A DNA stretch of 64,000 nucleotides from Saccharomonospora xinjiangensis XJ-54 (GTDB lineage: Bacteria; Actinomycetota; Actinomycetes; Mycobacteriales; Pseudonocardiaceae): contig NZ_JH636049.1 of assembly GCF_000258175.1 (NCBI RefSeq), forward strand, positions 1,382,482 through 1,446,481, given 5' to 3'. The notes beneath the pieces are model-generated. The model did no database searches. It was not told the DNA's origin and saw only the letters and a list, made by a program, of their open reading frames with translations. The position numbers and the translations under genes were made by a program. Positions within the stretch are counted from its first letter, which is position 1. Each line of letters starts with the position of its first letter. This document shows positions 1 to 9,938 of the stretch, piece by piece.

Positions 1-202
1 ACAACACAGCGCACGCCCTGCACGCACACGACAGTTCCCTCGACGGCAACCGCAGCAGGTGCCGGTGCGCATCAGGCACGATCTCCCCGCACAACTCGCA
101 CCGATGGCGTTCCTCGGCGGAGCCGGTGGCGGCGCGAGCCAGCTCCCGGAGCCTGCCGAGGGGCAACGGCCGGGTCACGCTCTCCGTGACAGGCCCCTTC
201 AT
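1..202 (-). CDS. DUF5947-type hydrogenase-operon protein (partial)
   Basis: Reads leftward off the window edge, so only the first 67 codons are present. The ATG (202-200) overlaps the TGA of the NifU-like gene (ATGA), which signals translational coupling and fixes the start. The N-terminal piece carries a CELC pair at residues 36-39 and a further cluster of three cysteines at about residues 59-64, suggesting a metal or Fe-S binding fold. Actinobacterial uptake-hydrogenase operons commonly carry a DUF5947 protein in this position; I assign it from position and cysteine pattern, so the family name is inferred. Role unknown; possibly electron transfer or maturation. Confidence 0.6.
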   Translation of the reverse strand, partial: MKGPVTESVTRPLPLGRLRELARAATGSAEERHRCELCGEIVPDAHRHLLRLPSRELSCACRACAVL

Positions 203-696
203 CGCGACCGCACCGCCGTGAGCGGGACGAACGCGGGTTCGGTTCGCACCCGCACGCGCACGTCCCTCACCTCGGGAGCCGCGGCGGCCACGGTACCTTT
301 CACCGTCTCCTCGGCGTCGCCTCCCGCTCGCGCGGCACCCTCGACCGACACGGTGGCCACACCGTCGTCGTAGCCGGTCAGCTCGGCGGCGAGCCGTGGT
401 CCGAGCTCCTCCAGCGCGCGACGGATACGGGTCGCCGGATCGTGGGGGTGCAGGTCGTGCACCAGCAGCAGATGCCCGACGAGCTCGTCGCGGCCCAGCG
501 TGTCATGGAGTCCGGGCGCGGTCTCGGTCGCGATGGCCACCACTCGGGCCAGTGCCTCGCCGTAGATTTCGACGAGGGCCCGCACCGTGTCGAGCGCCTC
601 GCCGTCGGCTCGCTCCGACAACCCGGCGAGTCCGTCGTCGAGTTCGGAGAGCCTGCGGCGGATGCGCCCGATGTCGTCCTTCCCGTGCTCACCCAT
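199..696 (-). CDS. NifU C-terminal-like protein of the hydrogenase operon
   Basis: 165-residue protein starting 6 bases after the large-subunit stop. The C-terminal third (about residues 105-155: YDDGVATVSVEG followed by a helix and an alternating V/R strand) has the layout of the NifU C-terminal scaffold domain. NifU-C domains normally bind an Fe-S cluster through CxxC, but this protein contains no cysteine at all, so it cannot scaffold a cluster in the usual way. The middle has an HDLHPHDP stretch that could bind metal. Its place between the large subunit and the DUF5947 gene suggests a structural or assembly role for the hydrogenase. Family call moderate, function inferred. Confidence 0.75.
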   Translation of the reverse strand: MGEHGKDDIGRIRRRLSELDDGLAGLSERADGEALDTVRALVEIYGEALARVVAIATETAPGLHDTLGRDELVGHLLLVHDLHPHDPATRIRRALEELGPRLAAELTGYDDGVATVSVEGAARAGGDAEETVKGTVAAAAPEVRDVRVRVRTEPAFVPLTAVRSR

Positions 697-702
697 CGAC
701 GA

Positions 703-2502
703 TCACGCCGGGTGCGCCGCGCCGAACGTGGGGGAGGCGATCTTCTTGAGCACCTTGCCCTCCCCGAGGTACATGTGCACACCACACGGCAGGCACGGGT
801 CGAAGCTGCGCACCGTGCGCATGATGTCGATGCCCTTGAAGTTCTCCCTGCCGTTCTCCTCGAAGATCGGCGTCCCCTGCACCGCGTCCTCGTACGGCCC
901 CGGCGTCCCGTAGCTGTCGCGAGGGCTCGCGTTCCACGGGGTTGGCGGGTAGGGGTGATAGTTGGCGATCTTCCCGTCGCGGATCACCAGGTGGTGCGAC
1001 AGCACACCCCGCACCGCCTCGTGGAAACCGACGCCGATGGCCTCGTCCGGGACCTCGAAGTTCTCGAACACCTTCGTGTTGCCGGAACGCACCTCCTGGA
1101 GCGCCTGCTCGACGAAGTGCAACGCCATGCCAGCCGCGTAGGCGACGAAGTACATCCGCGCCCTGTCGCGTTCGAGGGTGTTGGCGTAGCGGGGTGGCCG
1201 CCATTCCAGCCGCACGTCCGGGGTCTGCGGTGTGGCGGGCAGGTCGATCTGCACGGCCCCACCGGTCGCCTTGACGTACGGCGTGTCCACGAGACCGTTC
1301 AGCGCCGTCGCCCACAGCCTCGCCAGCGGGCCGCCCCCGGTGTCGAGTGCCAGGTGTTCGCGGCTCGACGGGTCGAACCAGCGCGGGCTCATCACCCAGC
1401 TGTAGTTGCCGTTCTCCAGGTCACGGGCCTGCGGGACGGGCAGCGTCGTCTGGTTCCACGGGTGCCGCTGATCGACGGGGTTGCCGAGCGGGTCGCGCTC
1501 CACGAACGTCTGCTCGTTCGTCCAGTCGTCGTAGTAGGAGCTGCCGAGCAGGATGCGCATGCCCAGGTTGATATCGACGAGGTTGTTGGTGAGCAGCTCG
1601 CCGTCCACCACGATGCCGGGTGTGACGTACATGTCACGGCCCCAGCTCGCCATGTTCTCGTAGCGGTAGTCCACCGAGTACGGGTCCTGGAAACAGCCCC
1701 AGCAGCCGAGGAGAATCCTCCTCCTGCCGACCTCCTCGTAGCCGGGCAGCGCGTCGTAGAAGAAGTCGAACACGTCGTCGTTCATGGCGACGGCCTGCTT
1801 CACGAAGTCGAGGCAGCGCAGCAGCCGGGTGAGGTAGTCGGTGAACACCTGCGGCGTCGCCACCGTCCCGACACCGCCGGGGTACAGGGTGGAGGGGTGC
1901 ACGTGTCTGCCCTCCATGAGGCAGCACATCTCCCTGGTGATCCGGCTGATCTGGAGGGCTTGTTTGTAGACCTCGCCCTCGAACGGGTTGAACGCGCGCA
2001 TGATGTCGGCGATGGTGCGGCGTCCGTGCAGGTCACCGCGAGGGGCTTCGGTGGTCTCCGCGCGCTTGAGCAGGCCGGGGTTGGTCTCGGCGACCATCCG
2101 CTCGCAGAAGTCAACGAAGACCATGTTGTCCTGGAAGATCGTGTGGTCGAACATGAACTCGGCGGCCTCACCGAGGTTCATGATCGTGTCGGCGAGCGGT
2201 GGTGGTTTCACGCCGTAGGCCATGTTCTGCGCGTAGATCGAGCACACCGCGTGGTTGTCACCGCAGATGCCGCAGATCCGGCTGGTGATGAAGTGCGAGT
2301 CACGCGGGTCCTTGCCCTTCATGAACACGCTGTAGCCGCGGAACAGCGACGAGGTGCTCCGGCACTCGACGACCTCGTTGTTGGCGAAATCCACCTTCGT
2401 GTAGATGCCGAGGTTGCCGACGATGCGGGTGATCGGGTCGAAGTTGACCTCGACCAACTCGCGCTGGGTCGGGGTACGGACCTCTCGCTGGGTCTGGGAC
2501 AT
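703..2502 (-). CDS. hhyL: [NiFe]-hydrogenase large subunit, actinobacterial (group 1h-like) type
   Basis: 599-residue catalytic subunit that binds the NiFe(CN)2CO site and splits H2. The N-terminal L1 motif RICGICGDNH puts nickel/iron ligands at C77 and C80 with H84. The C-terminal L2 motif DPCLPCGVH supplies C570 and C573, with H576 as the expected end of the mature protein. A 23-residue tail follows H576 and should be removed by the maturation protease encoded at 6582-7106. The gene lies 27 bases downstream of the small-subunit gene on the same strand and has a GGAG ribosome site. No membrane anchor is visible. The alternative, another group 1 hydrogenase, is less likely given the small-subunit cluster ligands. 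Confidence 0.95.
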   Translation of the reverse strand: MSQTQREVRTPTQRELVEVNFDPITRIVGNLGIYTKVDFANNEVVECRSTSSLFRGYSVFMKGKDPRDSHFITSRICGICGDNHAVCSIYAQNMAYGVKPPPLADTIMNLGEAAEFMFDHTIFQDNMVFVDFCERMVAETNPGLLKRAETTEAPRGDLHGRRTIADIMRAFNPFEGEVYKQALQISRITREMCCLMEGRHVHPSTLYPGGVGTVATPQVFTDYLTRLLRCLDFVKQAVAMNDDVFDFFYDALPGYEEVGRRRILLGCWGCFQDPYSVDYRYENMASWGRDMYVTPGIVVDGELLTNNLVDINLGMRILLGSSYYDDWTNEQTFVERDPLGNPVDQRHPWNQTTLPVPQARDLENGNYSWVMSPRWFDPSSREHLALDTGGGPLARLWATALNGLVDTPYVKATGGAVQIDLPATPQTPDVRLEWRPPRYANTLERDRARMYFVAYAAGMALHFVEQALQEVRSGNTKVFENFEVPDEAIGVGFHEAVRGVLSHHLVIRDGKIANYHPYPPTPWNASPRDSYGTPGPYEDAVQGTPIFEENGRENFKGIDIMRTVRSFDPCLPCGVHMYLGEGKVLKKIASPTFGAAHPA

Positions 2503-2529: not shown

Positions 2530-3585
2530 TCAGGCTCGGGGGTAGCGGGGTTGGTAGCCGGTGGTGAGTTTCTCGCCGGGGTGGCGCCACTTCGGCTCTG
2601 TGTTGACTGTCTTGTTCGTGATGCTGCGCATCGTGCGCACGAAAGGCCCGTACACGCTCAGCAGCGCGGACGAGAGGGAACCGCCAGGCGGCTCGTCCAT
2701 GAACGGCATGAACTTGTCGGGGAATCCGGGCATCGTGCAGCCGATGCACACGCCGCCGACGTTGGGGCACCCTCCGACGCCGTCCATCCAGCCCCGCTTG
2801 GTGACGTTGCAGTTCACCACGGGTCCCCAGCAGCCGATCTTGACCTGGCACTTCGGGGAGTTGTAGTCGTGGGCGAAGTCGGCCTGCTCGTAGTAGGCCG
2901 CGCGATCGCAGCCCTCGTGCACGGTCTTACCGAAGAGCCACTGCGGCCGGAGCTGGTCGTCCAGCGGGATGGTGGGTGCGAGCCCTGCTGCCTGGTGCAG
3001 CACCCACAGCAGGGTCTCCATGAAGTTGTCGGGCTGCACCGGACAGCCGGGGATGTTGATGACGGGCAGGCCACCGGCCGACCGGAAATCCTCACCGAGA
3101 TAGTCAACGAGCCCCATGCACCCTGTCGGGTTTCCCGCCATGGCGTGAATCCCGCCGTAGGTGGCACAGGTGCCGATGGCGACGACGGCCCACGCTTTCG
3201 GGGCGAGTTCGTCGATCCACCGGTTGAGGGTCTTGGGCTTGCCGGTCTCGGGATCGTTGCCCATGGCCGTCCAGAACCCGTCGGGGTCGCTGTGGATGTT
3301 CTCGTTGGGGATGGAGCCCTCGACGACGAAGATGAACGGCGCGCCGAGTTCACCGTTGGCCGCCTGGAAGAACGGCCGGAGGAAATCCTCCCCCGTCTCG
3401 TAGGCGAGCACCTTGTTGTGCAGATGCACCTTAGGGATTCCGGGAACGGCCGACAGCACCACGTCCTCGATGCTCGGCAGTGACGCTGCGGTGACCGAGA
3501 CGGTGTCACCGTCGCAGCTCATTCCCTCCGAGGTCCACAGGATGTGGATCTCTTCGACGGCGGTGGCGCTTGCCTGTGTGCTCAT
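2530..3585 (-). CDS. hhyS: [NiFe]-hydrogenase small subunit, actinobacterial (group 1h-like) type
   Basis: Electron-transfer subunit carrying Fe-S clusters between the NiFe site and the electron acceptor. I start it at the ATG at 3585 (351 residues); the frame is open further upstream to 3714, but that stretch is arginine-rich and unlike the family. There is no twin-arginine signal, so a cytoplasmic or peripheral enzyme is expected. The proximal-cluster motif is C24-D-G-D27, not the CxxC of standard small subunits. An aspartate ligand here is known from the actinobacterial-type (group 1h) hydrogenase of Ralstonia. Other cluster cysteines lie in GTCATYGG, IPGCPVQ, and the C-terminal CGCWGP-like, GGCPN and CIGC segments. 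Confidence 0.95.
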   Translation of the reverse strand: MSTQASATAVEEIHILWTSEGMSCDGDTVSVTAASLPSIEDVVLSAVPGIPKVHLHNKVLAYETGEDFLRPFFQAANGELGAPFIFVVEGSIPNENIHSDPDGFWTAMGNDPETGKPKTLNRWIDELAPKAWAVVAIGTCATYGGIHAMAGNPTGCMGLVDYLGEDFRSAGGLPVINIPGCPVQPDNFMETLLWVLHQAAGLAPTIPLDDQLRPQWLFGKTVHEGCDRAAYYEQADFAHDYNSPKCQVKIGCWGPVVNCNVTKRGWMDGVGGCPNVGGVCIGCTMPGFPDKFMPFMDEPPGGSLSSALLSVYGPFVRTMRSITNKTVNTEPKWRHPGEKLTTGYQPRYPRA

Positions 3586-3774
3586 GCGTCCACAGTGCGG
3601 CCCCGGCGAACGCTTCGCACAGCTTCGCCCCCGTCCGGAGTGGACTTGTTTGAACCTCCTCGGGCGCGGGTAGAAACGGTGGTTTTGCCTTGCCCGGCAA
3701 GAAGATTCGCGCACCCGACATCGATTTGTGCCAGCTGTGCGCGAACCGTAACGTCAGGTCATCTCCGGTCCAGC
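3586..3774. promoter_or_regulatory. Divergent promoter region of the hydrogenase operons
   Basis: 189-bp gap between the divergently read small-subunit gene and the SIS/hyp operon; both promoters must lie here or just inside. It contains a perfect 13-bp palindrome, CTTGCCCGGCAAG (3689-3701, arms of 6 around a central C), that could be an operator. No convincing -35/-10 pair stands out. The regulatory role is inference from position. Confidence 0.4.
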
Positions 3775-4458
3775 ATGCGCCAGACCGTCCACAGTGATCA
3801 TTCACCGAGACGAAAGCCCGGACGACCAGTGCCTGACAGTTCTGCCTTCGACGCCCTTGTCGATGCCGCCATGGAGCGCCGTGACGCGCCCCTCGAATCG
3901 TTGCTCGGCGAAGCCGGGTCCGTGGCACGCGCCTGTCACGCGATGGCGGAGCGTTTTCACAACGGCGGCACACTCGTCGTCTTCGGCAACGGCGGCGGCT
4001 CGACCGACGCCCAGCACATCTCCGTGGAGTTCGTCCACCCGGTGATCGTGGGCAAACGCGCACTACCCGCGCTGTCGCTCACCGCCGACGTGGCCACCAT
4101 GACCGGAATCGCCGCCAGAGTGGGCTTCGACGAGGTGTTCGCCCACCAGTTGCGCCACCTGGCCACCCGCGACGACATCGCACTCGGCCTCTCGGTGGAC
4201 GGCAACTGCGCCAACGTGCTCCGCGGCTTCGAAGAAGCACGCGCGCTCGGCATGCTCACGATCGCGCTGGTGGGAGGCCGTACCGATCACGGTGGCGCCA
4301 TCGCGAGAAGTACTGCGGTCGATCACGTGCTGCGCGCCGACTCCGACGATCCACGGGTGGTCAAGGAGGTGCACGTGACCATGTACCACGTCCTGTGGGA
4401 GCTGGTGCACGTGTTCCTGGAGCACCCCGGCTCGCTGACCCCGGAGGCCGTGTCGTGA
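3775..4458 (+). CDS. SIS-domain phosphoheptose-isomerase-like protein, paralog 1
   Basis: 227 residues from the ATG at 3775; a GTG at 3829 giving 209 residues is equally possible, and neither has a clear ribosome site. Resembles GmhA (sedoheptulose-7-phosphate isomerase). It has the FGNGGGSTDAQH loop at 70-81, the equivalent of E. coli GmhA E65 at E85, and the EVHVTMYH helix with H200 and H205 (H205 equivalent to H180). The sugar-phosphate loop normally STSGNS is changed to SVDGNC (140-145), so phosphate binding is doubtful. It opens the hyp operon and its stop overlaps the next start. A second, differently altered paralog follows one gene later. Not obviously needed for heptose synthesis here; a role in hydrogenase biology is inferred from linkage. 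Confidence 0.8.
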   Translation: MRQTVHSDHSPRRKPGRPVPDSSAFDALVDAAMERRDAPLESLLGEAGSVARACHAMAERFHNGGTLVVFGNGGGSTDAQHISVEFVHPVIVGKRALPALSLTADVATMTGIAARVGFDEVFAHQLRHLATRDDIALGLSVDGNCANVLRGFEEARALGMLTIALVGGRTDHGGAIARSTAVDHVLRADSDDPRVVKEVHVTMYHVLWELVHVFLEHPGSLTPEAVS

Positions 4459-4685
4459 CCCCCGCGAGTAGCGAGGACGGCCATTGCGCGGGCGAGGTGT
4501 GCCTGACCTGCTCCGACGCCGCCGTCGTCGTCCGCGTGGTGCGGCTTCTCGGCGACGACCTCGCGCTCGTGGACACCGGGACAGGTCACGAGGAGGTCAG
4601 CGTGGCACTGGTCGATCCCGCATGTCTCGAACCCGGAGCCCACCTGCTCGTGCACGCCAAGGAGGCGATCGGGGTGCCCCGATGA
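4455..4685 (+). CDS. Atypical HypC/HupF-family chaperone-like protein
   Basis: 76 residues; the GTG start sits in a GTGA overlap with the upstream stop. The C-terminal half (VVVRVVRLLGDDLALVDT, then VSVALVDPACLEPGAHLLVHA) follows the HypC beta-barrel pattern. Classical HypC begins MC-L-x-x-P and uses that N-terminal cysteine to carry the Fe(CN)2CO group. This protein instead has C11, C16 and C19 (motif CLTC) after a 10-residue lead, so its metal site must differ. A normal HypC is encoded further along (7084), so this is a second, specialised member. Sits between the two SIS genes with 4-bp overlaps on both sides. Confidence 0.75.
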   Translation: MTPASSEDGHCAGEVCLTCSDAAVVVRVVRLLGDDLALVDTGTGHEEVSVALVDPACLEPGAHLLVHAKEAIGVPR

Positions 4686-5335
4686 CCGATGCGATGAGTT
4701 CGCTGTACCCGTTCCTCTACGACGCCGAGGACGGTGGAAGGTCCGCCGACGCGGTACTGGACGAGGTGCGCCGCTCCACCGTGGACAAGGCGAGGGAGAT
4801 CATGGCGTTGCGGCGGCGCGTCCACCGGGAGCAGGGTGCGCTGCTCGCCGCGTGCGGAGCCGCGATGGCGGAGCGGTTCTCCAGGGGAGGCCGCCTGTTC
4901 TGCTTCGGCAACGGCGGCAGCTCCACCGACGCGGCCGATCTCGCCACGCAGTTCCTCGACCCGCCCCAGGGCAGGACCCCGCTGCCTGCCTTCGCCCTCA
5001 CGGCCGAGGCCGCCGTGGTCACCGCACTGAGCAACGACGTGGGCTTCGACCTGGTGTTCTCGCGGCAACTCGCCGCGTTCGGCAGGAAGGACGACCTCGC
5101 GGTCGGCCTGTCCACCAGCGGCAACTCGGCCAACCTCCTCACCGCGTTCGACCAGGCGCATCGCATCGGGATGCTCACGATCGGGATCACCGGCGACGGA
5201 GGCGGCAGGATGGCCGAACTCGACTCGATCGACTACCTGTTCCGGGTGCCGTCGTCGTCGGTGCACCGGGTCCAGGAGGCGCAGACGACGATCTACCACG
5301 TGCTCGCCGAGCTCGCGGCGGAGGGTGCGCGATGA
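4682..5335 (+). CDS. SIS-domain phosphoheptose-isomerase-like protein, paralog 2
   Basis: 217 residues; ATG fixed by ATGA overlap with the HypC-like gene. It has an extra N-terminal helix of about 45 residues before the SIS fold. The FGNGGSSTDAADLATQF loop is at 75-91 and an intact STSGNS sugar-phosphate loop is at 144-149. The position equivalent to catalytic E65 of GmhA is Q90, and the first helix histidine is Q201, while H206 (GmhA H180 equivalent) is kept. So the binding loop survives but the catalytic acid does not, the opposite pattern to paralog 1. The two could form a hetero-oligomer with composite sites. Function in the hydrogenase operon unknown. Confidence 0.8.
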   Translation: MTDAMSSLYPFLYDAEDGGRSADAVLDEVRRSTVDKAREIMALRRRVHREQGALLAACGAAMAERFSRGGRLFCFGNGGSSTDAADLATQFLDPPQGRTPLPAFALTAEAAVVTALSNDVGFDLVFSRQLAAFGRKDDLAVGLSTSGNSANLLTAFDQAHRIGMLTIGITGDGGGRMAELDSIDYLFRVPSSSVHRVQEAQTTIYHVLAELAAEGAR

Positions 5336-6585
5336 CCGATCCGGCCGCGCTCGACCAGGTGAAAGCGGTGGCGGACGCCGTGCTCTACGAGGGGTACGTG
5401 CTCTACCCGTACCGCGCGTCCGCGCAGAAGAACCACGTCCGCTGGCAGTTCGGTGTGCTGGTGCCGCCGTCGTACGCGGCAACGGGCACCGGCGAACACT
5501 CCGCGTGCCGCACGGAGTGTCTCGCCGAGGTGGGGCCGGACGCCGAACTGCACATCCGCCTGCGGTTCCTCCAGGCTCAGCGCCGCACCGTTGAGGTCGA
5601 ACGAGAAGACGCGCCCAGCGGCTTTCGCGAGGTGGACGCCCTGATCATCGGCGAGGACGAACTACTGCCGTGGGACGAGGCGGTGGAGTGCGAGCAGGAC
5701 GTCACGCTGCCGGTCGGGCGGCTGCTCGACTCCGACCAGTACCTTCCGGTGATCGTGCGCGGCGGCGAGCTGACCACCGCCGTGGACGGCGGGCGCGTGG
5801 TACGCCGCAAGAACCCGCTGACCGCGGAGCTGCGGTGCAGGGCCGAACGGCTGCCCGGGCTGGTGCGCCTGCATGTCACGGTGGCGAACACGGACACCGT
5901 CGATTGTTCGCGGCACACCAGGGACGAGGCGCTGCGGCACTCCCTCATCGCGGCACACACGGTGCTGAGCCTGCGCAACGGCCGCTTCCTCTCGCTGCTG
6001 GACCCGCCTGAGTGGGCGAGGGAGTACGCGAAGGGATGCGTCAACGAGCACACCTGGCCGGTGCTGGTCGGCCCGGTGGGCAGCGACGACGTGATGCTGT
6101 CCTCGCCGATCATCCTCTACGACCACCCGAAAGTGGACCCGAGCAGTCATGGCGACTTCTTCGACGCCTGCGAGATCGACGAGATGCTGACGCTGCGCAC
6201 GCTCACGCTCACGGACGCCGAGAAGCGCGAGGCCCGTGCCACCGACGAGCGCGCGAGGCGCATCGTCGATCGCGTCGAGGACCTGCCGCACCAGCCGAGG
6301 GAGTCGATGCACGGCAGGGTCCGCGTCGTGCGCGTGGCAGGCACCGAGATCGGCACGGGGAGCAAGGTGGTGCTGCGCCCTCACCAGGACGGCGACGCGC
6401 AGGACATGTTCGTCGATGGGCGTGTGGCCACCGTGCGCAGCGTCCTGGAGGACGTGGACGGAACCTGCTTCCTCGCGGTGACCGTCGATGGCGACCCCGC
6501 CGAGGAGTGGCAGCTCGCCCAGGGCCGGTTCCGGTACTTCACCACGGCCGAGGTCGAGCCCTATCCAGGGGAGGTGGTGCCGTGA
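5332..6585 (+). CDS. Conserved unknown protein of the hydrogenase operon
   Basis: 417 residues, ATG in an ATGA overlap with the SIS gene. I do not recognise a named family. The first 300 residues are soluble mixed alpha/beta with the stretch LYEGYVLYPYRASAQKN near the start and a conserved-looking segment (CVNEHTWPVLVG) near 240. The last 80 residues (GTEIGTGSKVVLRP, then DGRVATVRSVLEDVDG) look like a small beta-barrel of the SH3 kind. No signal peptide or membrane segment. Tight coupling to the maturation protease downstream (GTGA overlap) argues for a part in assembling or stabilising the hydrogenase. Function should be left open. Confidence 0.7.
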   Translation: MTDPAALDQVKAVADAVLYEGYVLYPYRASAQKNHVRWQFGVLVPPSYAATGTGEHSACRTECLAEVGPDAELHIRLRFLQAQRRTVEVEREDAPSGFREVDALIIGEDELLPWDEAVECEQDVTLPVGRLLDSDQYLPVIVRGGELTTAVDGGRVVRRKNPLTAELRCRAERLPGLVRLHVTVANTDTVDCSRHTRDEALRHSLIAAHTVLSLRNGRFLSLLDPPEWAREYAKGCVNEHTWPVLVGPVGSDDVMLSSPIILYDHPKVDPSSHGDFFDACEIDEMLTLRTLTLTDAEKREARATDERARRIVDRVEDLPHQPRESMHGRVRVVRVAGTEIGTGSKVVLRPHQDGDAQDMFVDGRVATVRSVLEDVDGTCFLAVTVDGDPAEEWQLAQGRFRYFTTAEVEPYPGEVVP

Positions 6586-7106
6586 CGAGCAAGGTGCTCA
6601 TCGCAGGCATCGGCAACGTCTTCAACGGCGACGACGGGTTCGGTGTCGAGGTGGTGGCCCGGCTGTCCACCAGGGACCTGCCACCGGAAGCCGTCGTCGC
6701 GGACTACGGCATCCGGGGCGTGCACCTGGCGTACGAGCTCCTCGACGGCGGGTACGAGACCACGATCTTCGTGGACGCCGTTCGCCGTGGTGGTGAGCCG
6801 GGAACCGTCTACGTCATCGACGCCGACCCCGCCTCGACGCCGTCGGCGGGCGATCACAGCGACGAGGGCCCTGTGCTCGACGCGCACGGCATGCATCCCG
6901 CCGCCGTCCTCGCGTTGCTGCGCAGGCTGGGCGGGACTCCCGGCCGCGTGTTCGTCGTCGGTTGCGAACCGCTCACCGTCGCCGAGGGCATGGGGCTGAG
7001 CGAACCGGTGGCCGCCGCGGTGGACGAGGCGGCACGGCGAGTGCGCGAGCTCGTCGCCGACGCGTTGGAAAGGGGTGGCGTCGATGTGTCTCGGCATTCC
7101 CGGTGA
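6582..7106 (+). CDS. Hydrogenase maturation protease (HyaD/HupD/HybD family)
   Basis: 174 residues, GTG start in a GTGA overlap. Peptidase M52 proteases remove the C-terminal tail of the large subunit after nickel is inserted. The N-terminal GIGNVFNGDDGFG motif (9-21) is diagnostic, with D18 at the place of the nickel-sensing E16 of HybD. A DYGIRG segment and an HGMHP motif provide the other acidic and histidine metal contacts. Its substrate should be the large subunit encoded at 703-2502, which has the DPCLPCGVH cleavage context and a 23-residue tail. Confidence 0.92.
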   Translation: MTSKVLIAGIGNVFNGDDGFGVEVVARLSTRDLPPEAVVADYGIRGVHLAYELLDGGYETTIFVDAVRRGGEPGTVYVIDADPASTPSAGDHSDEGPVLDAHGMHPAAVLALLRRLGGTPGRVFVVGCEPLTVAEGMGLSEPVAAAVDEAARRVRELVADALERGGVDVSRHSR

Positions 7107-7356
7107 GGTGGTTGAGATCCTGGCGGATCGGCCGGATCTGGCCAGGGTGCACGTGAGCGGGGTGCGCAGGGCGATCAACATCGGCCTGCTGTCAGACGAC
7201 CCGCCTGTTCCCGGCGACTGGGTGCTCATCCACGTCGGGTTCGCAATGTCCAAAATAGACCAAAAAGAGGCCGAGGCGGTGTTGCGCTACCTGGAGGAAC
7301 TGGGCAGTGCTTACACCGACGAGATGGACGCACTGAGTCAATCGATGATCGAGTGA
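7084..7356 (+). CDS. hypC: Hydrogenase assembly chaperone HypC
   Basis: 90 residues. The ATG at 7084 gives the required MCLGIPG N-terminus and has a good AAGGGG ribosome site at about 7069-7075; an in-frame GTG at 7075 would bury the cysteine. HypC works with HypD to hold iron while CN and CO are added, then delivers it to the large-subunit precursor; Cys2 is the key ligand. The HVGFAMSKID motif near residue 50 is typical. Overlaps the protease gene by 23 bases and hypD by 4. Confidence 0.95.
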   Translation: MCLGIPGEVVEILADRPDLARVHVSGVRRAINIGLLSDDPPVPGDWVLIHVGFAMSKIDQKEAEAVLRYLEELGSAYTDEMDALSQSMIE

Positions 7357-8495
7357 AGGCGGCGACGATGCGGTTTGTCGATGAGTACCGCGACGCGGAC
7401 ACGGCACGGGCGCTGGCGAAGCGGATCGCTGAACTGTGCGAACCCGGCCGCGAGTACAAGTTCATGGAGGTGTGCGGCGGTCACACCCACACCATCTACA
7501 AGCACGGGATCGCCGACTACCTGCCCGAACAGGTCTCCCTCGTGCACGGGCCCGGCTGCCCGGTGTGCGTGATCCCCATGGGCCGGATCGACGACGCCAT
7601 CCACATCGCGAGCCTCGACGACGTCATCATGACCTCGTTCGGCGACATGATGCGGGTTCCCGGCAGCGGCGGCACGTTCTTCGACTCCAACTCGGAGGGC
7701 ACCGACATCCGCATGGTGTACTCGCCGCTCGACTCCCTACGCATTGCCAGGCAGAACCCCGACAAGCAGGTCGTGTTCATGGCGATCGGGTTCGAGACCA
7801 CCGCGCCTTCCACCGCCATGACGGTGCTGCGCGCGCAACGCGAGGGTATCGAGAACTTCTCGGTGTTCTGCAACCACGTCACGATCATCCCCGGCATCAA
7901 GGCGATCCTCGACTCCCCCGACCTGAGGCTCGACGGCTTCCTCGGGCCTGGCCACGTCTCCACCGTGATCGGTTGCCGTCCCTACGAGTTCATCCCGCGC
8001 GACTACGCCAAACCACTCGTGGTGGCGGGCTTCGAGCCGCTGGACATTCTTCAGTCGGTGTACTTCCTGCTCCGGCAACTGCGGGAGGGCCGCTGCGAGG
8101 TGGAGAACCAGTACGCGCGGGTGGTGCCGTGGAACGGCAACCCCGTCGCACTCGACGCCATCGCGCGCACCATGCGGCTGCGCCCCTACTTCGAGTGGCG
8201 CGGTCTCGGCTTCATCTCCCACTCGGCGCTGCGGCTGCGCGACGAGTACGCGGCGTTCGACGCCGAGCAGCGGTTCTCGCTGCCCGGCGTGCGCGTCGCC
8301 GACCCGAAGTCGTGCCAGTGCGGCGAGGTACTCAAGGGCGTGCTGAAGCCGTGGGAGTGCAAGGTGTTCGGTACCGCGTGCACCCCGGAGACCCCCATCG
8401 GCACCTGCATGGTGTCGCCGGAGGGCGCGTGCGCCGCCTACTACAACTTCGGCCGGTTCACCCGGCAGCGGATCAAGGAGGCGACCACGGCATGA
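7353..8495 (+). CDS. hypD: Hydrogenase formation protein HypD
   Basis: 380 residues, GTG start in a GTGA overlap with hypC. HypD is the Fe-S scaffold on which Fe(CN)2CO is assembled. The expected motifs are all present: MEVCGGHTH (C41), HGPGCPVC (C69, C72), FETTAPST, PGHVS, and the C-terminal [4Fe-4S] ligands beginning CQCGEVLKG and continuing through ECKVFG, ACTPETP and GACAAYY. Length is normal for the family. Ends in an ATGA overlap with hypE, so hypC-D-E are translated as a unit. Confidence 0.97.
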   Translation: MKAATMRFVDEYRDADTARALAKRIAELCEPGREYKFMEVCGGHTHTIYKHGIADYLPEQVSLVHGPGCPVCVIPMGRIDDAIHIASLDDVIMTSFGDMMRVPGSGGTFFDSNSEGTDIRMVYSPLDSLRIARQNPDKQVVFMAIGFETTAPSTAMTVLRAQREGIENFSVFCNHVTIIPGIKAILDSPDLRLDGFLGPGHVSTVIGCRPYEFIPRDYAKPLVVAGFEPLDILQSVYFLLRQLREGRCEVENQYARVVPWNGNPVALDAIARTMRLRPYFEWRGLGFISHSALRLRDEYAAFDAEQRFSLPGVRVADPKSCQCGEVLKGVLKPWECKVFGTACTPETPIGTCMVSPEGACAAYYNFGRFTRQRIKEATTA

Positions 8496-9583
8496 AGACC
8501 GGCATGAAGACCGGCACGAGAACCGAGGACGACGTGCTCGACCGCATCGAGCGGGCTCGCCGCCGCAAGCCGAGGGTGCTCCAGGAACGCATCACCGCCG
8601 CGCACGGCGCAGGTGGCAAGGCGACGCAGACGCTCGTGGAGGCCGTGTTCGTCGATGCCTTCCGCAACGCGCTGCTCGAACCGCTCGGTGACGCCGCCGA
8701 CCTCGTCCTCGGCGGCACGAGGCTGGCGATGACGACCGACTCCTTCGTCGTGTCACCACTGTTCTTCCCCGGCGGCAACATCGGTGACCTCGCCGTCAAC
8801 GGAACCGTCAACGATCTCGCTGTGGCAGGCGCGCGGCCTTCCTACCTCTCGTGCGGGTTCATCCTGGAGGAAGGCTTCGAAGTCGCCGACCTCCGCCGCA
8901 TCGTGGAGTCGATGCGGGAGTGCGCCGATGCCGCGGGTGTCACGCTCGTGACCGGTGACACCAAGGTCGTCGGCAAGGGCAGCGGGGACGGGTGCTACAT
9001 CAACACCACGGGAGTGGGTCTGCTGCCGACGGACCGGGCCCTCGGCATCCACACCGTGAAGCCGGGGGACGCCGTGATCGTCTCGGGCCCCGTCGGTGAG
9101 CACGGCGTCACCGTGATGCTCGCCCGAGGTGAGCTGGACATCGAGGCGGAACTCGTCTCCGACACCGCGCCGCTCGCGGATCTCTGCGCGCGGCTGCTGA
9201 CCGTGCCCGGGGTGCGGGCCATGCGGGACGCCACCCGGGGTGGGGTCGCGACAGTGCTGAACGAGATCGCCCGCGCGGCCGAGGTGTGCGTGGTGGTGGA
9301 CGAGGAACGCGTCCCGGTGCGCGACGAGGTCAGAGGCGCCTGCGAGTTACTCGGCATCGACCCGCTGTACGTGGCCTGTGAGGGGCGGTTCGTCGCGGTG
9401 GTCGAGGGTGCGCACGCGGAGCAGGCCGTCACGATCCTGCGGGAACACCCGCAGGGAGCCGAGGCCGCTGTGATCGGCAGGGTGGGCCCCGATCCCGCAG
9501 GCACGGTGTTGCTCAACACGGCCTTCGGTGGAACAAGGGTCGCCGACCTGCTCGTCGGCGATCCACTGCCCCGCATCTGCTGA
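8492..9583 (+). CDS. hypE: Hydrogenase expression/formation protein HypE
   Basis: 363 residues, ATG in an ATGA overlap. HypE uses ATP to dehydrate the carbamoyl group received from HypF on its C-terminal cysteine, making the thiocyanate that becomes the cyanide ligands. The protein ends in PRIC, so the essential terminal cysteine (C363) is present. The AIRS/PurM-type fold is seen in AHGAGGKATQ, MTTDSFVVSPLFFPGG and GTVNDLAVAGA. The first 25 residues (two MKTG repeats, then a charged stretch) are an extension not usually found. Confidence 0.97.
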   Translation: MKTGMKTGTRTEDDVLDRIERARRRKPRVLQERITAAHGAGGKATQTLVEAVFVDAFRNALLEPLGDAADLVLGGTRLAMTTDSFVVSPLFFPGGNIGDLAVNGTVNDLAVAGARPSYLSCGFILEEGFEVADLRRIVESMRECADAAGVTLVTGDTKVVGKGSGDGCYINTTGVGLLPTDRALGIHTVKPGDAVIVSGPVGEHGVTVMLARGELDIEAELVSDTAPLADLCARLLTVPGVRAMRDATRGGVATVLNEIARAAEVCVVVDEERVPVRDEVRGACELLGIDPLYVACEGRFVAVVEGAHAEQAVTILREHPQGAEAAVIGRVGPDPAGTVLLNTAFGGTRVADLLVGDPLPRIC

Positions 9584-9584
9584 C

Positions 9585-9938
9585 ATGCACGAACTGTCGA
9601 TCACCCAGAGCATCGTGGACGCCGTCGTCGAGCACACCAGCGGCGCGCGGGTGTGCTCGGTTCGCCTTGAGATCGGTGCCCTGTCCGGCGTCGAGGCGGA
9701 CGCGCTGCGGTTCTGCTTCGACGCGGTGACGAGGGGAACCCCGCTGGACGGCGCCGGATTGGTGATCGAGCCCGCGGCCGGGGCAGGCCGATGTGGACGG
9801 TGCGGTGCCGACGTGCCGCTGTCGTCGTTTCTCGACGCCTGCCCGTGCGGGTCGGTGGATGTGGCTGTCAGATCGGGACAACAACTACGAATTCTCGACG
9901 TGGAGGTGGAACGCGATGTGCGGGACCTGCGGATGTGA
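9585..9938 (+). CDS. hypA: Nickel metallochaperone HypA
   Basis: 117 residues starting MHELS one base after the hypE stop. HypA passes nickel to the large subunit together with HypB; H2 and E3 are the nickel end. The zinc site is normally two CxxC pairs. The first is normal (C70, C73), but the second reads C86-P-C88, a CxC with one residue missing compared with the usual CPxCG. All four cysteines are still available. Overlaps hypB by 23 bases. Confidence 0.95.
   Translation: MHELSITQSIVDAVVEHTSGARVCSVRLEIGALSGVEADALRFCFDAVTRGTPLDGAGLVIEPAAGAGRCGRCGADVPLSSFLDACPCGSVDVAVRSGQQLRILDVEVERDVRDLRM

Follow-up and report, generated by a model that had tools for sequence, protein, structure and literature searches.

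Why should a hydrogenase gene cluster carry two GmhA-like isomerase genes, neither of which encodes a complete active site? The question arises in a window of 64,000 nucleotides, the whole stretch analysed here, from Saccharomonospora xinjiangensis XJ-54 (contig NZ_JH636049.1, positions 1,382,482 to 1,446,481; host genome size 4.78 Mb). On its plus strand, SIS1 (3775..4458; start possibly GTG at 3829) and SIS2 (4682..5335; with an N-terminal LYPFL motif) flank a gene for a HypC-like protein, HypC' (4455..4685), which overlaps each of them by 4 nucleotides. We propose that SIS1 and SIS2 are probably obligate partners, derived from one duplication followed by complementary loss of half-sites, and that they carry out a step on a phosphorylated sugar that aids hydrogenase maturation. 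The metal half of a composite site would lie in SIS1, and the substrate and phosphate half in SIS2.

The split can be followed residue by residue. SIS1 retains the metal half of the GmhA site (H81, E85 and H205), its phosphate loop reads SVDGNC (140-145), and K197 replaces the bridging Gln. SIS2 retains GNGGS, ND, STSGNS (144-149) and Q198, and has D86 and Q90 where GmhA has its metal His and Glu. A preliminary description of this DNA had noted E85, H205 and the altered loop in the first paralog, and STSGNS, H206 and Q90 in the second; these residues are correct, and H81, K197, D86 and Q198 extend the pattern. The two proteins are 43% identical over 152 residues. Both score above the cut-off for PF13580 (SIS_2; 60.4 and 63.8 bits vs 27) and below that for the GmhA equivalog TIGR00441 (111.8 and 130.9 vs 209.45). 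Neither chain unites the four zinc ligands with the Ser loop, SIS1 lacking the loop and Gln, and SIS2 the His and Glu. The equivalog cut-off and the split residues together rule out an ordinary GmhA.

In published homologs, namely a structure and a model, the two halves meet between subunits. The zinc ligands of Burkholderia pseudomallei GmhA (H64, E68, Q175 and H183) are called completely conserved in orthologs, and their mutation lowers activity (PMC5705639). In the Neisseria gonorrhoeae enzyme, one monomer provides His, Glu and His, while Gln belongs to its neighbour (PMC5387315). In a model of the Mycobacterium tuberculosis enzyme, the GNGG segment, the Ser loop and Gln touch the substrate, with Glu coming from another monomer (PMC7705670). 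Mapped on the window, SIS1 corresponds to the His-Glu-His part of such a site and SIS2 to the loop-Gln part.

Is this arrangement peculiar to one genome? A first set of 102 hydrogenase loci comprised the window, the cluster on Cupriavidus necator pHG1, 20 sample genomes and 80 relatives. The 20 were taken from 26 genomes with matches resembling the large subunit HhyL in a 198-genome phylum sample, leaving out G081, G114 and G141 (41-43% identity) and G087 and G184 (contig ends). The 80 are the best 80 of 571 relatives among genome contigs, and are skewed to relatives of the C. necator enzyme. SIS frames occur in 46 of the 102 loci: 22 have both types, 23 have one complete SIS, and one (L049) has SIS2 only. 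For residue counts, we added 13 of 16 SIS1-SIS2 fusions among fetched proteins, dropping three with truncated N-terminal halves, together with Bradyrhizobium, Afipia, Thermus and Mycobacterium intracellulare plasmid loci; a SIS1 fragment in L042 was also dropped. Domains were grouped by position in fusions and by residue for separate genes (five SIS1, seven SIS2). The His/Glu/His triad is present in 36/36 SIS1-type domains, none of which has more than 4 of 6 substrate features. The loop, Gln and other substrate features are present in 38/38 SIS2-type domains, the metal His in 0/38 and the Glu in 1/38. Among the loci counted here that have one hydrogenase-linked SIS, the site is complete in 25/26, L049 being the exception, and all 25 complete single-copy forms have the four zinc ligands and Ser loop in one chain.

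Because this grouping relied partly on residues, it was checked in two ways: with a tree from which the diagnostic columns had been removed, and with a second set of loci. The latter drew 28 regions from 17 SIS-positive genomes of a later 65 and from 10 genomes with SIS outside the first loci. Removal of L201 (a repeat of L109) and L202 (another complete SIS from the same genome) left 26, in which SIS1 and SIS2 were assigned by profile score; one further SIS match of 208 bits (G216:C39) was left out of the survey. The triad recurs in 24/24 SIS1 domains; a 25th, that of L185, was split by the alignment into one piece with His and Glu and another with the second His. GNGGS, ND, [ST]TSGxS and Gln recur in 26/26 SIS2 domains, and His or Glu in none. 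Ligands predicted to be idle drift: Gln is found in 26 of 60 SIS1 domains, and H183 is lost in 10 of 64 SIS2 domains vs 0 of 60 SIS1. Across both sets, SIS1 and SIS2 occur together in 47 loci (22 and 25), SIS2 alone in two (L049, and L183 at a contig end) and SIS1 alone in none. Neither protein is therefore widespread on its own, and the substitutions are conserved among orthologs. Conservation of the complementary loss extends to Actinomycetota, Chloroflexota and Acidobacteriota, and to a plasmid of Thermus.

The tree points to how the pair arose. It was inferred by a quick method, with GmhA as outgroup, from 86 of 102 rows remaining after a redundancy filter, with 19 diagnostic columns removed and support given by the Shimodaira-Hasegawa-like approximate likelihood ratio test (SH-aLRT), without bootstrap. 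SIS1 forms one clade (SH-aLRT 100), SIS2 forms another (92), and the two are sisters (90), nested together among the complete single-copy forms. Consequently, a single duplication has moderate support; complementary loss would have followed, after which the two would have been inherited or transferred together, with some fusing. Both subtrees group Chloroflexota, and Acidobacteriota with Thermus, in similar ways. They disagree on the position of the M. intracellulare type, whose SIS1 (Mintra_N) is a long branch. The SIS1 clade itself has a stem length of 0.9. Separate duplications in each phylum are disfavoured by the finding of one SIS1 and one SIS2 clade, with a support of only 90 for their sister relation.

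Natural fusions join SIS1 to SIS2, SIS1 to HypC', and HypC' to SIS2, and an AlphaFold2 model of a fused SIS1-SIS2 chain resembles the tandem SIS of GlmS, aligned over both halves. HypC' itself starts with VTPASSEDGHC and has Cys at 11, 16 and 19 (CLTC motif); it lacks the N-terminal Met-Cys that in HypC carries an Fe ligand. It lies near the split pair in the window, in L042, L043, L047, L054-L056, L086, L095 and L106, and in Thermus. It also occurs close to the unpaired SIS2 of L049, and in L038, L040 and L053, where SIS lies elsewhere. At the thresholds used, it was not found near complete single-copy SIS genes, near the Acidobacteriota fusions or in L051, which speaks against HypC' as a companion of every SIS gene. 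One M. intracellulare plasmid gene annotated as HypC (L141:3138-3848) encodes SIS1 fused to HypC'; this SIS1 has diverged strongly but keeps its metal residues. A Thermus plasmid (L144:1274-8465) carries hypC, HypC', hypD, hypE, a SIS1-SIS2 fusion, a Uxx-star glutaredoxin-like gene, hypF and a PIG-L deacetylase gene; glutaredoxin has been noted at acidobacterial group 1h loci (PMC5900883).

We infer that SIS1 and SIS2 most likely form an obligate hetero-oligomer, in which each heterodimer has one composite site and which acts together with the HypC-like protein. The structural part of the preliminary proposal, a hetero-oligomer with composite sites, is supported by the conserved complementary loss, the fusions, the published cross-subunit geometry and the tandem model; its functional part, action on a sugar phosphate or a cofactor precursor linked to maturation, may be right as well. 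The ancestor would have been a GmhA-like metal isomerase encoded in the hyp gene cluster, a homomer with complete sites. After duplication, each copy may have lost the half-site that the other supplied across the subunit interface. In the working site of each heterodimer, H81, E85 and H205 of SIS1 would hold the metal, and GNGGS, ND, STSGNS and Q198 of SIS2 would bind the phosphorylated substrate and close the metal site; the other site would be dead. Such an asymmetry would make permanent the half-of-the-sites behaviour that has been reported for GmhA. The pair would work beside HypC', HypC and HypD, probably converting an aldose phosphate, a ketose phosphate or a similar alpha-hydroxy-carbonyl compound via a metal-bound enediol, a step that could aid assembly of Fe(CN)2CO or shield it in air.

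Several points weigh against this interpretation. The metal Glu is not invariant in solved relatives, since 5BY2 has Gln there and 3TRJ has Lys (PMC7705670), so Q90 of SIS2 by itself would prove little. That the SIS1 and SIS2 halves would meet is suggested by analogy with published homologs, and the fusion model was built on 22 sequences. In L106, SIS2 retains Glu and SIS1 retains 4 of 6 substrate features. L049 (genome G042, 6281-7782) has SIS2 and HypC' without SIS1 beside hhySL, the one clear exception to pairing. Finally, 71 of 133 HhyL-bearing genomes have no hydrogenase-type SIS, defined as a match of 180 bits or more, so not every group 1h enzyme needs SIS.

An alternative is that SIS1, SIS2 and HypC' form a non-catalytic adaptor, which would bind either a protein or a sugar phosphate and so serve the Hyp machinery as a sensor or scaffold. 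The model for this is DiaA, a GmhA homolog that binds DnaA and that is among the PDB relatives; the long stem of SIS1 and the fusion to HypC', suggestive of scaffolding, fit as well. A pure binder would have no use for the triad, however, and the triad is invariably kept in SIS1, as are the substrate loop and Gln in SIS2, each where the composite site needs it. We therefore regard an adaptor as unlikely. It is very unlikely that the two are separate homomers with new and differing functions that share an operon by chance: each keeps a SIS_2 domain, and they have diverged to 43% identity, but SIS1-SIS2 fusions, 4-nucleotide gene overlaps, 47 loci with both against two with SIS2 only, and a loss that is complementary at each residue all speak for joint action. 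That SIS1 is a copy decaying under relaxed selection deserves almost no credence: it has mostly lost the loop, GNGGS and ND, and has diverged strongly in M. intracellulare and the f2 genomes, but it is maintained in several phyla, with hardly any variation in its metal residues or in the stretch VEFVHPVIVGKRALPAL.

What ties the SIS1-SIS2 pair to hydrogenase maturation is the location of SIS genes in hyp clusters, together with the HypC' fusions; a maturation role would follow from both. In three plasmids, a single complete SIS lies between hypC and hypD; the complete single-copy gene of C. necator H16 is H16_RS31885. In the window, HhyL (703..2502, minus strand) is 72% identical to HhyL of the C. 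necator pHG1 cluster (L008), which we take to be a group 1h (5) enzyme, and on this closeness it belongs with that group. The 133 HhyL-bearing genomes comprise 68 (21 sample genomes and the genomes of 47 of the 80 loci) and a further 65. Hydrogenase-type SIS occurs in 62 (45/68 and 17/65) and HypX in 34 (13/68 and 21/65); six have both, 28 HypX only, 56 SIS only and 43 neither. Within the clusters of the 102 loci, SIS occurs in 46, HypX in 16, both in none and neither in 40, of which 20 have less than 8 kb on a side. Fisher tests, which ignore kinship, gave p values of 0.0068 (68 genomes), 1.1e-4 (133 genomes) and 3.8e-5 (in-cluster table). A kinship-aware test of SIS against HypX found seven independent pairs, of which on average 1.7 went in opposite directions, 0.1 went in the same direction and 5.1 showed no difference (median p 0.5, not significant). 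SIS as a strict HypX substitute is thus not upheld, and the mutual exclusion is largely a lineage effect. All 16 cases of HypX within the cluster seem to come from a single family (Streptomyces, Kitasatospora, Actinacidiphila and two of code f4); in Streptomyces-type loci (L111, L113, L115, L133 and others), no more than a few kb separate hypX from hhySL. In family f72, HhyL-bearing genomes lack both HypX and hydrogenase-type SIS in 20/20.

The composite SIS might conceivably be an aerobic source of the carbon monoxide (CO) ligand, or of its one-carbon precursor, in clusters without HypX. The metal site, of the 2-His-1-carboxylate type, would come from SIS1 and the pocket for a sugar phosphate from SIS2, and a metal-bound enediolate could release a one-carbon fragment to be passed to HypCD via HypC'. 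We consider this highly improbable, and the 43 genomes with neither gene speak against a strict need for SIS or HypX as a CO source. The open-licence literature searched, as far as accessible, did not address the CO source of aerobic clusters without HypX.

Around the pair, the window carries hydrogenase and maturation genes. Opposite hhySL (3588-703, minus strand), SIS1, HypC' and SIS2 are followed on the plus strand by genes for a 417-residue protein (5332..6585), a HycI-family hydrogenase maturation protease (6582..7106), canonical HypC (7084..7356; MCLGIPG start), a protein that we take to be HypD from its sequence and position (7353..8495), and further Hyp proteins, including HypA (9528..9938; likely start 9585). 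The 417-residue protein has no Pfam or NCBIfam match at E 0.1, and is 38% identical to C. necator H16_RS31865. Overlaps of 4 nucleotides also link SIS2 to the 417-residue gene and the latter to the protease gene, and this run of overlaps from SIS1 onwards suggests coupled translation. The gene for the small subunit HhyS (2530..3588, minus strand) is oriented divergently from SIS1. Downstream of HhyL, a protein at 199-696 (minus strand) is 31% identical to a C. necator NifU-family protein and has no cysteines; HhyE-type proteins in mycobacteria are described as putative iron-sulfur proteins. The pair need not be the host's only GmhA-like isomerase, since a profile search found other SIS_2 matches in the genome, the best of them distant (C2:2838689, 125.4 bits).

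The proximity of SIS genes to hydrogenases is already published as annotation, without mention of a pair or a split site in the accessible parts of those sources. An SIS cluster of 68 genes near hydrogenases has been tabulated (PMC12727194), gmhA is marked at acidobacterial group 1h loci (PMC5900883), and GmhA has been linked to HypD/HypE in Clostridium acetobutylicum (PMC3231954). A term look-up in the accessible text of PMC4767420, PMC6883350, PMC13098282 and PMC10657181 returned no mention of an isomerase or SIS, and no description of the SIS1/SIS2 pair or its split site was found in the open-licence literature searched. The pair offers a natural example of complementary degeneration in an interface-site enzyme, an unusually clean one, with a pattern held across several phyla. 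If our interpretation is correct, a half-of-the-sites homotetramer has become a fixed asymmetric pair, and the genes for maturing the hydrogenases that take up atmospheric H2 include a largely unexamined component.

Among known systems, GmhA (sedoheptulose-7-phosphate isomerase; TIGR00441; PDB 2xbl, 5ltz and 5i01) shares the fold, zinc ligands, phosphate loop and interface site, and the single-copy hydrogenase SIS has its full residue set. Unlike GmhA, the pair carries these halves on two paralogs, scores below the gmhA cut-off and lies within hyp clusters. The GlmS isomerase domain, GKRP and other tandem-SIS proteins have two SIS domains per chain as a pseudo-dimer, like the fusion model, to which they are about 8-14% identical in the rows listed. 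They belong to other SIS lineages, and use their two sites unequally. HypX, the aerobic source of the CO ligand, is likewise an extra maturation gene in some aerobic hyp clusters, but its fold and chemistry are unrelated to SIS, and SIS is absent from the Streptomyces-type loci that have hypX near hhySL. In trypanosomatid deoxyhypusine synthase, an interface-site tetramer became a hetero-oligomer of paralogs after duplication, much as we propose for SIS1 and SIS2; that enzyme is unrelated, however, and one paralog is dead and the other impaired, with no exchange of half-sites (PMC3663545). DiaA, in which the Glu has become Ser (PMC7705670), is a GmhA-like SIS protein in a non-heptose role.
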